Shown here in pieces: positions 2,638 through 29,590 of a DNA stretch of 29,934 bases. Location of the stretch: positions 1 to 29,934 of IMG/VR virus record IMGVR_UViG_3300020450_000064; one strand, written 5' to 3'. The notes under the pieces are model-generated. The model did no database searches and had not been told where the DNA came from. It saw nothing but the letters and a program-made list of their open reading frames with translations. The stretch comes from a virus. Numbering within the stretch: position 1 is the first letter of the stretch; each line of letters opens with the position of its first letter. A program made the translations under genes and the position numbers.

Positions 2638-5111
2638 GTAAGTTTTATACGAACATTCAACTTGCAGGGGATACAATCCTCTACAGAGGATATGAGAACG
2701 GAGAGCCTGTGCAGTTTCGTTCTCATTTTTCTCCTACATTATATGTCTTATCCAAAAATAAAGAGAAGTTTACAACACTTGATGGAAGATATGTTTCACC
2801 TGTTAAGTTTGATAAACCAAGAGAAGGTAGAGAATTTATTCGTCAATATGATGGTGTAGAAGGTTTTGAAGTTCATGGGTATGAACGTTTTGTATATCAA
2901 TACATTAGACAAGAGTTTCCTAATGATGTAGATTACAATGTCAATCAGATAAAGATGTACGCAATGGACATTGAGGTTCAATGCGAAAACGGTTTCCCTG
3001 ATGTAGAAGCAGCAGCAGAAGAAATGCTGTCAATCACCATCAAAGATATGGTGACTAAAAAGTTTTACATCTGGGCAGTCAAAGATTTTAATACAGAACA
3101 TAAGAAGTTTATATTTGATACTGAACGTGAGATGCTTATGCATTTCATAGACTGGTGGGTGAAACATACCCCAGACATCTTGACAGGATGGAATGTAAAC
3201 CTGTATGATGTACCCTACATATGTCGTAGGGTTAAAAGAATCCTAGGCTCCAAGTGGATGAACTCTATTTCACCTTGGAATCGTGCAAATGAGAGGGAAG
3301 TTTATGTCCAAGGACGCAAGAACTATGCTTATGATGTTAGTGGGGTTAACATTCTTGACTATCTCGACCTTTACCGTAAGTTTACTTATAGTAACCAAGA
3401 ATCCTATCGACTTGATCACATCGCTTATGTCGAATTAGGACAACGTAAGGTTGACCATAGTGAGTATGAAAACTTCAAAGATTTCTATACATCAGATTGG
3501 CAGAAATTCATTGAATATAACATTCAAGATACAGAATTGATTGATCGTCTTGAAGAGAAGATGAAGTTATTAGATCTTGCCATAACTATGAGTTATGATG
3601 CCAAGGTTAACTTTGAAGATGTATACTCACAGGTTCGTATGTGGGATACAATGATCTACAACTATCTTACAGATAGAAATATTGTTGTCCCCCCTAAGAA
3701 GGGTGCAAAGAAAGATGAAAAGTATGCAGGTGCCTATGTTAAAGAACCGATACCAGGAAAGTATGATTGGGTGGTTAGTTTTGACCTTAATAGTCTGTAT
3801 CCTCACCTTATCATGCAGTACAATATCTCGCCAGAAACACTCTGGGAGACTAGACATGCCAGTGCGAGCGTTGAAAGGATTTTAAATGAAGAGATAACCA
3901 TCGAAGATGATGTATGTGTATGTGCTAATGGTGCACAGTATCGTAAAGACATACAAGGGTTTCTACCTGAGATGATGGATAAGATATACAAAGAACGTAC
4001 GATCTATAAAAAGAAAATGCTCTCAGCAAAACAAGCATATGAAAGAACACCGACTGATAAACTACAAAGAGATATCTCCAAGTTTAATAACATTCAGATG
4101 GCGAGAAAGATCCAACTTAATAGTGCTTATGGTGCTATTGGCAATCAATATTTTCGCTATTACAGTCTTGCCAACGCAGAAGCTATTACCCTATCTGGTC
4201 AAGTTTCTATTCGTTGGATTGAAGGTCGTATGAATAAATATCTAAACAAGATTCTTAAAACGGAGGATGTAGATTATGTCATTGCAAGTGATACTGATAG
4301 CATATATCTTAATCTCGGTCCTTTGGTTCAAAGTGTATACAAGGGGAGAGAGAAGGATGATAAAGTCATTGTTAGCTTCCTTGATAAGGTGTGTAATGTG
4401 GAATTTGAAAAGTATATTTCAGATTCTTATCAAGCGTTGGCCGACTACGTAAATGCTTTTGACCAGAAGATGTTTATGAAACGTGAGACCATTGCCAACA
4501 AAGGTATATGGACTGCAAAGAAAAGATATATTTTAAATGCATGGGACATAGAAGGTGTAAGATTTGATAAACCTAAGTTAAAAGTGATGGGCATTGAGGC
4601 AGTCAAGTCTAGTACACCTGGTGCATGTAGAGAAAAAATTAAAGAGTGTTTAACCGTTATTATGAATGAGGGAGAAGAGGCAGCACAGGAGTTTATTGCA
4701 AACTTTAAAGATCAGTTTAATGAGTTACCTGTTGAAGACATATCATTCCCCAGAGGATGTAACGGAATAAATAAATGGGCAAACCCATCCAGTATCTATA
4801 GTAAAGGAACACCCATTCATGTTCGTGGTGCGTTGTTATACAACTATTACAATAAAAAGAATAACTTAATGCACAAATATCCTCTTATACAAGACGGTGA
4901 AAAAATTAAATTTGTTTATTTAAAAACACCTAATAAGTTTGGAGAAAATGTAGTGTCATTCATCAGCACCTTTCCAAAGGAGTTTGGACTTGACAAACAG
5001 GTGGATTATGAGTTACAATTTGAGAAGAGTTTCCTTGACCCAATAAAAGTTATATTAGATACAATAGGATGGAAGTCGGAAAAAGTAGCAAGTTTGGAGT
5101 TTCTTTTTTGA
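2634..5111 (+). CDS. gp43: Replicative DNA polymerase gp43 (family B)
   Basis: 825 residues (T4 gp43 has 898) with a GTG start overlapping the previous stop as GTGA. The 3'-5' exonuclease is complete: Exo I D112/E114 (MDIEV), Exo II near D192 (GWNVNLYDVPY), Exo III D299 (YNIQDTELID). Polymerase motifs: A at 381-390 with D384 (FDLNSLYP), B at 491-504 (KIQLNSAYGAIGN), C with D553/D555 (ASDTDSIYL). The C terminus VASLEFLF resembles a sliding-clamp-binding peptide, as expected for docking to gp45. It copies the phage genome with helicase gp41 and primase gp61, both in this window. All catalytic carboxylates appear present; no truncation. Confidence 0.98.
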   Translation: MSKFYTNIQLAGDTILYRGYENGEPVQFRSHFSPTLYVLSKNKEKFTTLDGRYVSPVKFDKPREGREFIRQYDGVEGFEVHGYERFVYQYIRQEFPNDVDYNVNQIKMYAMDIEVQCENGFPDVEAAAEEMLSITIKDMVTKKFYIWAVKDFNTEHKKFIFDTEREMLMHFIDWWVKHTPDILTGWNVNLYDVPYICRRVKRILGSKWMNSISPWNRANEREVYVQGRKNYAYDVSGVNILDYLDLYRKFTYSNQESYRLDHIAYVELGQRKVDHSEYENFKDFYTSDWQKFIEYNIQDTELIDRLEEKMKLLDLAITMSYDAKVNFEDVYSQVRMWDTMIYNYLTDRNIVVPPKKGAKKDEKYAGAYVKEPIPGKYDWVVSFDLNSLYPHLIMQYNISPETLWETRHASASVERILNEEITIEDDVCVCANGAQYRKDIQGFLPEMMDKIYKERTIYKKKMLSAKQAYERTPTDKLQRDISKFNNIQMARKIQLNSAYGAIGNQYFRYYSLANAEAITLSGQVSIRWIEGRMNKYLNKILKTEDVDYVIASDTDSIYLNLGPLVQSVYKGREKDDKVIVSFLDKVCNVEFEKYISDSYQALADYVNAFDQKMFMKRETIANKGIWTAKKRYILNAWDIEGVRFDKPKLKVMGIEAVKSSTPGACREKIKECLTVIMNEGEEAAQEFIANFKDQFNELPVEDISFPRGCNGINKWANPSSIYSKGTPIHVRGALLYNYYNKKNNLMHKYPLIQDGEKIKFVYLKTPNKFGENVVSFISTFPKEFGLDKQVDYELQFEKSFLDPIKVILDTIGWKSEKVASLEFLF

Positions 5112-21880: not shown

Positions 21881-21909
21881 TTGACAAATAATTAGGGTAA
21901 TGATATATT
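21881..21909 (+). promoter_or_regulatory. Sigma70-type promoter for the candidate noncoding RNA
   Basis: TTGACA (21881-21886), a 17-base spacer, and TATATT (21904-21909). An almost perfect host-type promoter with predicted start near 21916, at the base of the first hairpin. No gene follows for 350 bases, which points to an RNA product. Confidence 0.85.
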
Positions 21910-21914
21910 ATAAA

Positions 21915-22175
21915 TGTGCCTGATCAGCACATCGGGAGTGACTGAATAAACTTACTGGCATATAGCTAGTTAAGGTGATGAGACACAGGTGGTGCTGCTC
22001 CTAGGGAACTAGGAGAATCGACTTACCAGTCGGGTCTCAGGCAGAGATGTTTTTCTAACTGTAGAAATGCCCATCTCTTGTTGGTATACAGGATTCCAAC
22101 CTCCCTCTTTACCCAACAACCAAAAATAAGCGTGGGAATAATATCCCAACTGGAGGGTTCGCATCCTCCTTTTTA
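21915..22175 (+). ncRNA. Candidate structured noncoding RNA, about 260 nt
   Basis: Framed by a promoter (21881) and a terminator (22152), with no reading frame of note. Visible helices: TGTGC/GCACA (21915, 21927); ACTGGC/GCTAGT with one G-U (21954, 21965); TGAGAC/GTCTCA (21979, 22034) enclosing two perfect hairpins, CTCCTAG-GGAA-CTAGGAG (21998-22015) and CGACT-TACC-AGTCG (22019-22032), thus a three-way junction; AGAGATG/CATCTCT (22043, 22072) enclosing TTTCTA-ACTG-TAGAAA; TTGTTGG/CCAACAA (22078, 22113); TGGGA/TCCCA (22133, 22144). I do not recognise it as tmRNA, 6S, RNase P or a group I intron. Function unknown; a regulatory or decoy RNA is possible. Confidence 0.75.
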
Positions 22176-22178
22176 TTT
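22152..22178 (+). terminator. Intrinsic terminator of the noncoding RNA
   Basis: GGAGG (22152-22156) and CCTCC (22165-22169) around an 8-base loop, then TTTTTATTT. The next promoter's TTGACT begins at 22177, inside the T-rich tail, so the two units are packed without a gap. Confidence 0.85.
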
Positions 22179-22205
22179 GACTAAATAATTATGTCATGAT
22201 ATAAT
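22177..22205 (+). promoter_or_regulatory. Sigma70-type promoter with overlapping inverted repeat
   Basis: TTGACT (22177-22182), 17-base spacer, TATAAT (22200-22205); the start would be near 22212, right at the first base of the riboswitch-like element. A perfect inverted repeat, ATGTCA-N8-TGACAT (22191-22210), surrounds the -10 box and could be an operator. Confidence 0.8.
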
Positions 22206-22212
22206 GACATTA

Positions 22213-22258
22213 CGTTCATCCTGATATACTCAGGACGCAAGTAAGCCGACTCGGAACG
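22213..22258 (+). promoter_or_regulatory. Glutamine-riboswitch-like element (Downstream-peptide/glnA type)
   Basis: CGTTC (22213) pairs with GAACG (22254) as P1, and TCCTGA (22219) with TCAGGA (22230) as P2. The conserved core reads CGTTCATCC ... GGACGCAAGTAAG ... GGAACG, close to the CGUUCAYCC/GGACGGAAGUAGG/GGAACG consensus I remember for the glnA and Downstream-peptide glutamine aptamers of cyanobacteria and marine phages. It begins at the predicted transcription start and precedes a short gene, as known Downstream-peptide RNAs do. Deviations (GCAAGTAAG for GGAAGTAGG) leave ligand identity to test. Confidence 0.75.
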
Positions 22259-22261
22259 GAT

Positions 22262-22462
22262 CGTTCATCCTTATGATTTCTACATTAATTGCCACTACTA
22301 TAGTTACAGTCTCCTGTGGAGACATCAATGCTCTAGTTGATCGTGCTAAAACTTACCCTGACCTTAGCACACAAGAACGACAAGAGATTATTGATCTGTA
22401 TTATGAGTTTGGTATGACACAGGGTCTAAATTGTAAGGACGCAAAAGCCGACTGAAGGAACG
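22262..22462 (+). other. Second riboswitch-like core split around a gene
   Basis: A second 5' half, CGTTCATCCTT (22262-22272), lies directly before the ATG of the 60-codon gene. A matching 3' half, AAGGACGCAAAAGCCGAC ... GAAGGAACG, lies at 22435-22462 across its stop codon. CGTTC pairs with GAACG and TCCTT with AAGGA, so the gene would occupy the P2 loop. Sequence identity with the first copy (GGACGCAA, GCCGACT, GGAACGG) is clear; whether the long-range fold forms is inference. Confidence 0.5.
22273..22455 (+). CDS. Short riboswitch-associated peptide, possibly exported
   Basis: 60 residues. MISTLIATTIVTVSCGD looks like a short signal or lipoprotein-type N terminus with a Cys at 15. The rest is helical and acidic (NALVDRAKTYPDLSTQERQEIIDLYYEFG), with a second Cys and the end KDAKAD, encoded by riboswitch-like core sequence. 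No ribosome site is obvious because the start follows TCATCCTT directly; translation may be controlled by the RNA fold. In cyanobacteria, genes downstream of glutamine riboswitches include short inhibitors of glutamine synthetase (IF17), but no clear homology is seen here. Confidence 0.6.
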   Translation: MISTLIATTIVTVSCGDINALVDRAKTYPDLSTQERQEIIDLYYEFGMTQGLNCKDAKAD

Positions 22463-22748: not shown

Positions 22749-22777
22749 ACCCCTGTCTTTGACAGGGGTCTTTTTTA
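22749..22777 (+). terminator. Strong intrinsic terminator before talC
   Basis: ACCCCTGTC-TTT-GACAGGGGT is a perfect 9-pair hairpin followed by CTTTTTT. It ends the riboswitch-led transcript. Its loop and 3' arm contain the TTGACA of the next promoter. Confidence 0.93.
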
Positions 22778-22791
22778 TGGTATAATAAATA
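22759..22791 (+). promoter_or_regulatory. Promoter of talC, built into the terminator
   Basis: TTGACA (22759-22764) sits in the terminator hairpin, then 16 bases to TATAAT (22781-22786). A late-type AATAAATA (22784-22791) overlaps the -10 box, so early and late polymerase could both start here. The spacing to the ATG at 22811 fits both. Confidence 0.75.
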
Positions 22792-22810: not shown

Positions 22811-23464
22811 ATGAAAATCTTTTTAGACTGTTCTGATCCTGAGTTTATCAAAGATGCCTTTGATACAGGATTAGTTGATGGTATTACTACCAATCCTAGT
22901 TTGATGCTGAAGAATGGACATGATCCAGTAACAGTAATCAAACAGATTTCAGAGATCTTTCCTTTCCACTCAAGTATTTCAGCAGAAGTTGTAGGTGAAA
23001 CTACAGAACAAATGCTAGACATGGCAGATGAGTATGTTGATATAGGACCTAATATTACTATTAAGGTTCCTTTAACACCTGCAGGTCTAAAAGCATGTAA
23101 GAGTTTAACAGAGGATGACATCCCTGTTAACGTTACATTATGTTTTTCTACAGCACAAGCGATACTAGCATCAAAGGCAGGAGCAACATATGTTTCTCCT
23201 TTTGTTGGTCGTGTATATGATCAATCATTTGATGGATTAAAACTCATAGAGGAGATAGCAGATGTCTACGCTACACATCAATCTAAGACCCAAGTTCTTG
23301 CAGCATCTATTAGGGAAGTCGGTCAAGTATCCTCTGCTTTTAGAGTGGGTGCTGATATCTGCACTATTCCTCCCAAAGTTTTTACAGGAATGTACAAACA
23401 TATTCTTACAGATAAAGGGTTAGAACTGTTTGATGCAGACTGGACAAAACTAGTGGGTGGATAG
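22811..23464 (+). CDS. talC: Transaldolase TalC
   Basis: 217 residues, the short TalC/fructose-6-phosphate aldolase-like class. The N terminus MKIFLDCSDP and DGITTNPSL match the family; the Schiff-base lysine is K85 in ITIKVPLTPAG. NVTLCFSTAQA and YVSPFVGRVYDQ complete the barrel. It transfers dihydroxyacetone units in the pentose phosphate pathway. Cyanophage talC is known to be expressed during infection, favouring NADPH and pentose for dNTP synthesis, in line with nrdAB nearby. A tiny upstream ATGAAATGA is not a gene. Confidence 0.97.
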   Translation: MKIFLDCSDPEFIKDAFDTGLVDGITTNPSLMLKNGHDPVTVIKQISEIFPFHSSISAEVVGETTEQMLDMADEYVDIGPNITIKVPLTPAGLKACKSLTEDDIPVNVTLCFSTAQAILASKAGATYVSPFVGRVYDQSFDGLKLIEEIADVYATHQSKTQVLAASIREVGQVSSAFRVGADICTIPPKVFTGMYKHILTDKGLELFDADWTKLVGG

Positions 23465-29410: not shown

Positions 29411-29440
29411 TTGACAGAGTTACATATCTTCATATATAAT
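29411..29440 (+). promoter_or_regulatory. Sigma70-type promoter of psbA
   Basis: TTGACA (29411-29416), 18-base spacer, TATAAT (29435-29440). The predicted start near 29447 leaves a 144-base leader before the psbA ATG. The 29353-29410 stretch before it is AT-rich with no gene or terminator seen. Confidence 0.88.
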
Positions 29441-29446
29441 ATATAA

Positions 29447-29590
29447 CGTGGGGTTTTCCACACAGACCACTGCTCCCAACCAAGACCTCTGTAGGCAGTA
29501 TAATACTTCGTCTTTCATATCCAGTAGCGAGGGGTTACTGGAAATAAGTTTCGCATCTTCCCTGATGCCCTACTTACAAACGTCCTAATA
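29447..29590 (+). promoter_or_regulatory. Structured psbA leader (PhotoRC-like candidate)
   Basis: The leader folds into several hairpins: GTGG/CCAC at its 5' end (29448, 29458), ACTGC/GCAGT (29469, 29495), TCCAGTA/TACTGGA with a 9-base loop (29520, 29536), and GCATC/GATGC (29553, 29564). PhotoRC RNA motifs are known upstream of psbA in cyanobacteria and cyanophages; I cannot confirm by eye that this is one of them. No strong ribosome site precedes the ATG, so the leader may control translation. Confidence 0.5.

Follow-up and report, generated by a model that had tools for sequence, protein, structure and literature searches.

The structured RNA described here is a member of the known manA family (RF01745), which is common in marine cyanobacterial viruses. 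It lies in the window (the whole 29,934-nucleotide stretch analysed). A regulatory role is likely, while the host-takeover role suggested in the earlier note drew no direct support. The regular order found around manA, with a promoter before it and a terminator after it, suggests control over whether transcription continues. Taken alone, the window gives an ordinary result, another member of the manA family.

Identity of the RNA and source of the window

The window is a virus record that resembles T4-like cyanophages through its nrdA, nrdB, transaldolase and SegE-type endonuclease genes, and its closest relatives are P-RSM3, P-SSM4 and P-RSM4 with about 77% DNA identity. The Rfam covariance model of manA matched the RNA over its full length (model positions 1-192 of 192) with an E-value of 2e-52, the gathering score being 55.2 bits (Table 1). 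The full record holds one copy by the RF01745 search, and this copy contains the manA core GTGACTGAATAAACTT. All 11 annotated cyanophage genomes searched had manA above the cut-off, one copy each at the search sensitivity used. The earlier note had proposed a new phage noncoding RNA; the match to a known Rfam family overturns that claim and rules out a new RNA family. The note did not recognise the RNA as a tmRNA, 6S RNA, RNase P RNA or intron, and these classes, together with tRNA, are ruled out since the region has no such Rfam or ARAGORN match. A pattern scan of genome contigs returned 75 matches, which were rejected as mostly chance 16-mer matches in unrelated bacteria.

Table 1. Features of the manA locus in the window, with the linked hairpin of relatives
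Feature	Position	Strand	Remarks
Sigma-70-type promoter TTGACA-N17-TATATT	21881..21909	+	TTGACA 21881-21886, 17-nt spacer, TATATT 21904-21909; 11/12 consensus bases; kept in sibling contig L034
manA RNA (RF01745)	21914..22110	+	Rfam score 187.3 bits; helices by covariation
P1 helix	GGGAG 21934-21938 with CTCCC 22101-22105	+	closes junction; covariation
TGAGAC/GTCTCA helix	21979-22039		exact
CTCCTAG/CTAGGAG stem, GGAA loop	within 21998-22015		exact
CGACT/AGTCG helix	region 22019-22032		exact
AGAGATG/CATCTCT helix	22043-22078		exact
3' hairpin of manA	22080-22100		manA model helix
Hairpin TGGGA/TCCCA, between manA and terminator	22133..22148	+	compared with L034
Intrinsic terminator GGAGG-GTTCGCAT-CCTCC-TTTTT	22152..22174	+	GGAGGGTTCGCATCCTCC 22152-22169, then TTTTT 22170-22174; kept in L034, outermost pair changed
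TAAATA, candidate phage late-promoter motif for next cassette	22182..22187	+	motif also in L034 and P-RSM6
37-nt hairpin, carriers			L020, L022, L027, L031, L044, L049, L050, L053, L055, L092 and about 85 more

Fold and covariation

The manA structure in the window is real and above chance. All 55 base pairs of the Rfam model form standard pairs, and the folding z-score of the RNA is -2.8. Every helix that had been named from the sequence in the earlier note is present and coincides with a helix of the Rfam model, so that the three-way junction and the nested stem described there belong to the manA fold. Three helices of the model had been overlooked: the junction also holds a CAG/CUG hairpin, the long-range helix P1 closes it, and a further hairpin lies towards the 3' end (Table 1).

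Compensatory changes in the stems of relatives, named in the earlier note as a check, were strongly evident in an alignment of 76 sequences, where 90.6% of the cells at Rfam pairs were standard. Changes on both sides of a pair occurred in 398 cells against a shuffle mean of 92.8 (none of 500 shuffles was as high) and affected 33 pairs against a shuffle mean of 19.7, and structures slid by 1-3 columns gave only 43-97 such cells. P1 was paired in 100% of the 76 sequences, with AU replaced by UA in six and GC by AU in two. Only 55-57% of cells were paired in two helices, the inner stem at 22052-22067 and the hairpin at the 5' terminus, partly because gap placement by MAFFT ignores structure.

Promoters upstream of manA

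A sigma-70-type promoter adjoins manA upstream in 106 of 115 copies of the unfiltered set, as compared with 15 of 522 random sites on the same contigs. Among flank-nonredundant copies, 75 of 83 are directly preceded by one, a strong promoter being defined by at least 10 of the 12 sigma-70-type consensus bases. Of the eight copies without one, six have TTGACA and then TATAAA when judged by eye, which makes the rule almost exceptionless. The early-type promoter predicted for the window is likewise in place (Table 1). The distance from the end of the -10 box to the GGGAG strand of P1 is mostly 20-32 bases (20-21 being commonest), and with this spacing transcription would begin at or next to the 5'-terminal hairpin of manA.

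In 40 manA copies, as well as in the variant-core loci L006 and L011, an upstream terminator overlaps the promoter: its hairpin encloses the -35 box and its T-run forms part of the promoter spacer. We found 47 of these fused terminator/promoter elements, 42 of them directly upstream of manA; with somewhat tighter settings the scan found 45 in 977 kb, as against none in shuffled sequence. In these elements the -35 box TTGACA lies inside the terminator hairpin and the T-run inside the spacer, followed by TATAAT or CATAAT. Examples are located in the window at 22749-22786, ahead of the transaldolase gene, and around 3446-3482 in L001.

Terminators and genes downstream of manA

By an energy-based scan, 44 of 119 manA copies have a hairpin with a U-tract within about 125 nt downstream, as compared with 16 of 602 control sites, many of the related contigs in these and the other counts for relatives being non-independent. 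An earlier scan, blind to hairpins with internal loops, had detected only 17 of 119. An ORF of at least 45 aa starts no more than 30 nt from the U-tract in 29 of the 44 terminator-bearing copies, and no more than 15 nt in 16 of them. A promoter does not fit into 30 nt, and thus these genes would be reached by readthrough only. Terminators directly abutting the ATG were observed for 7 of 50 manA-led ORFs versus 6 of 833 other ORFs. The succession of promoter, manA, terminator and close ORF in relatives is the layout of transcription attenuation. For the other 75 of 119 relatives the same scan found no terminator, and so attenuation is not the full story.

In the window, seven of eight positions of the P1 3' strand AACCTCCC could form pairs with GGAGGGTT, the 5' half of the terminator, which makes this pairing a possible antiterminator. 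It is no better than in shuffled sequence (window fraction 0.13), and we therefore dropped it as proof of attenuation.

In cyanophages, manA copies follow pstS, gp23, regA or ferredoxin genes and precede transaldolase, gp32, purL or small ORFs. The genes downstream of manA are highly diverse; gp32, transaldolase and hsp20 are named by their clustering with copies from annotated phages, and labels such as ThyX, HAD-like or ManA-like for other downstream clusters would be tentative, resting on recognition of the sequence. In L024, a tRNA gene directly follows manA (3764-3834, by Rfam), and in L079 a tRNA-like 3' end was seen by eye immediately 3' of it.

The window copy and its sibling

The window and the sibling contig L034 share the order of promoter, manA, compensatory hairpin, terminator, TAAATA, glutamine-aptamer-like element and small ORF. 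The terminator of GGAGG/CCTCC with five T residues noticed earlier was confirmed, as was the lack of a reading frame ahead of it, there being no plus-strand ORF of at least 40 aa within 21910-22178. The counterpart of the TGGGA/TCCCA hairpin in L034 is TAGGG/CCCTA, with two compensatory differences. Both contigs therefore have the layout of a free-standing RNA, with its own promoter, its own terminator and no intervening ORF. The description of the RNA as autonomous stands for these two copies and fails for most relatives, where manA occupies the 5' UTR as the leader of a gene; in the window, the terminator and about 163 nt separate manA from the first ORF past the terminator, which starts at 22273. 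With no gene directly after the terminator in either contig, a free RNA of about 260 nt is also possible.

The TAAATA of Table 1 may be a phage late-promoter motif. Together with a possible promoter at 22177-22205, also ahead of the ORF at 22273, it implies that the genes beyond may be expressed without readthrough. The possible promoter is not conserved in L034, which makes it unlikely as a conserved start for the next cassette. In P-RSM6, the glutamine cassette comes first and manA lies directly upstream of the transaldolase gene. Compared with this order, manA in the window lineage is separated from the gene that it leads elsewhere, and its default product there may be the free RNA of about 260 nt.

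A 3' hairpin linked to manA in relatives

A 37-nt hairpin (GACCTAAGATGCAACT...AGTNGGGCAGATGGTC) was found in the relatives' loci only beside manA, 8-16 nt 3' of P1. Its 97 copies comprise 84 with a manA core no more than 260 nt upstream, 12 copies at contig ends and one with a variant-core manA. Eleven of the 12 contig-end copies show manA 3' sequence, and the remaining one (L248) has two bases upstream. A relaxed pattern gave 98 matches, and the two not classed as manA-linked were contig-end copies. In the manA-core scan, which is unbiased towards the hairpin, 26 of 119 copies carry it; the window copy does not. The hairpin has no Rfam match and is almost invariant except in its loop, with one both-sided change, so that the case for its structure is mainly one of constancy, with covariation lending weak support. 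It contains a tandem-GA internal loop (UAAGA/GA) that could be kink-turn-like, and a U-rich tail follows it in 45 of 97 copies. At L242, a divergent manA-like RNA without the usual core precedes the linked hairpin.

Neighbouring RNA elements

The window contains a glutamine-aptamer-like RNA at 22262-22462 (CGTTCATCC...GGACGCAA..AGCC..GGAACG) with a complete ORF (22273-22455) inside the loop of its second stem. Split elements of this kind also occur in L001, L002, L034, L045, L048, L060, L069, L085, L105 and others, giving 20 distinct cases in which the stem covaries and the peptides fall into at least three dissimilar types. The nested ORFs encode 50-68 aa; their ATG lies within the stem or next to it, and the stop is supplied by or abuts the aptamer 3' half in different frames (..DAKAD*, ..GRK*, TAG before GACG). 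The ORF-containing stretch has no Rfam glutamine-riboswitch match, which the insertion of about 150 nt could explain, and the assignment is based on pattern and covariation only. No description of such nested-ORF elements was found in the literature searched, and they are possibly more novel than the manA finding. An unsplit glutamine-riboswitch-like aptamer (RF01739, 33.6 bits, just short of the gathering score of 35) at 22211-22262 is directly upstream of the split one, in a tandem arrangement. Elsewhere in the window, a PhotoRC-II RNA (RF01717, 62.4 bits) occupies 29458-29555 with a strong promoter at 29411-29440 upstream. ARAGORN also called a tRNA-Gln(ctg) on the minus strand at 22903-22984, antisense within the transaldolase ORF; this call is probably false, as the Rfam tRNA model does not support it.

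Proposed mechanism and alternatives

Our preferred reading, to which we give about an even chance, is that manA in the window is a promoter-proximal leader acting by transcription attenuation. A host-type RNA polymerase would initiate at the promoter, at or beside the 5'-terminal hairpin as its position implies, and the nascent RNA would adopt the manA fold closed by P1, the fold itself being backed by covariation. About 45 nt past manA, the polymerase would reach the intrinsic terminator that the sequence shows. There, the state of the manA fold, presumably set by a ligand, a protein or an infection signal, would choose between stopping and readthrough. Stopping would release a free RNA of about 260 nt, while readthrough would lead into the small-ORF cassette, which carries a glutamine-aptamer-like element, and farther downstream reach the transaldolase gene. 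Attenuation is supported by the promoters upstream (75/83), the terminators (44/119) and the ORFs close to the U-tract (29/44), as well as by the abutment of terminators on start codons (7/50 versus 6/833) and the position of manA before transaldolase in P-RSM6. Against it, the varied downstream genes would be unusual for a riboswitch sensing a metabolite of a single pathway. A broader version, which we put forward tentatively, is that manA is a phage-wide attenuation device at the starts of early transcripts, often behind a fused terminator/promoter, that decides on termination before many unrelated genes, the linked 37-nt hairpin perhaps serving as an expression platform or protein site.

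The relatives without a terminator (75/119) would fit a leader or riboswitch that controls translation or mRNA stability instead of termination. Under this rather unlikely alternative, the 5' hairpin and compact fold would either shield the message or switch access to the ribosome site of the gene that follows, in line with an RNA that starts at or beside the 5' hairpin and with a next gene, such as gp32 or transaldolase, often about 20-130 nt after manA. However, it explains neither the excess of terminators abutting start codons nor a copy like that of the window, whose terminator has no gene beside it.

Another alternative is that manA in the window lineage has become a stand-alone, trans-acting small RNA of about 260 nt, along the lines of the autonomous RNA proposed in the earlier note. 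The joint retention of promoter, manA, compensatory hairpin and terminator in the window and L034 argues for it, as do the missing ORF ahead of the terminator and the TAAATA that the next cassette has of its own. The arrangement was seen only in two closely related contigs, though, whereas elsewhere manA is mostly a leader and its Rfam class is cis-regulatory, and we consider the proposal unlikely.

The put RNA of phage HK022 and EAR RNA are processive antiterminators that act on RNA polymerase. A similar action of manA, by which early operons would be transcribed through terminators, would agree with its place at transcript starts, the many unrelated genes downstream and the terminators that follow it without a later promoter, but it seems very improbable, and most manA copies have no terminator.

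Comparison with known systems

In the available part of Weinberg et al. 2010 (PMC2864571), manA is rated as certain to be an RNA and to be cis-regulatory, and as a probable riboswitch. The window copy shares with that family the full-length model match, the core, the helices and the marine and cyanophage range, and differs in having an intrinsic terminator with no gene directly after it. A manA RNA of the same Rfam family is annotated in the isolated T4-like cyanophage S-CREM1 (PMC9964418), with 100.6 bits as compared with 187.3 bits for the window copy; the available part of that paper contains no promoter or terminator analysis of it that we could find. Likewise, we found no mention of the constant promoter, the frequent terminators or the extra 3' hairpin for manA in the available parts of the two papers. 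The literature searched gives no ligand for manA and no experimental function.

The family has been a candidate riboswitch since 2010 and is carried by viruses that rank among the ocean's most abundant, and its near-constant promoter and frequent start-codon-abutting terminator offer a simple and direct test of its role. No significant antiterminator pairing was found for manA, which may belong to the transcription-attenuating riboswitches and resembles them in the succession of a structured 5' RNA, a terminator and then, in the relatives, a gene.
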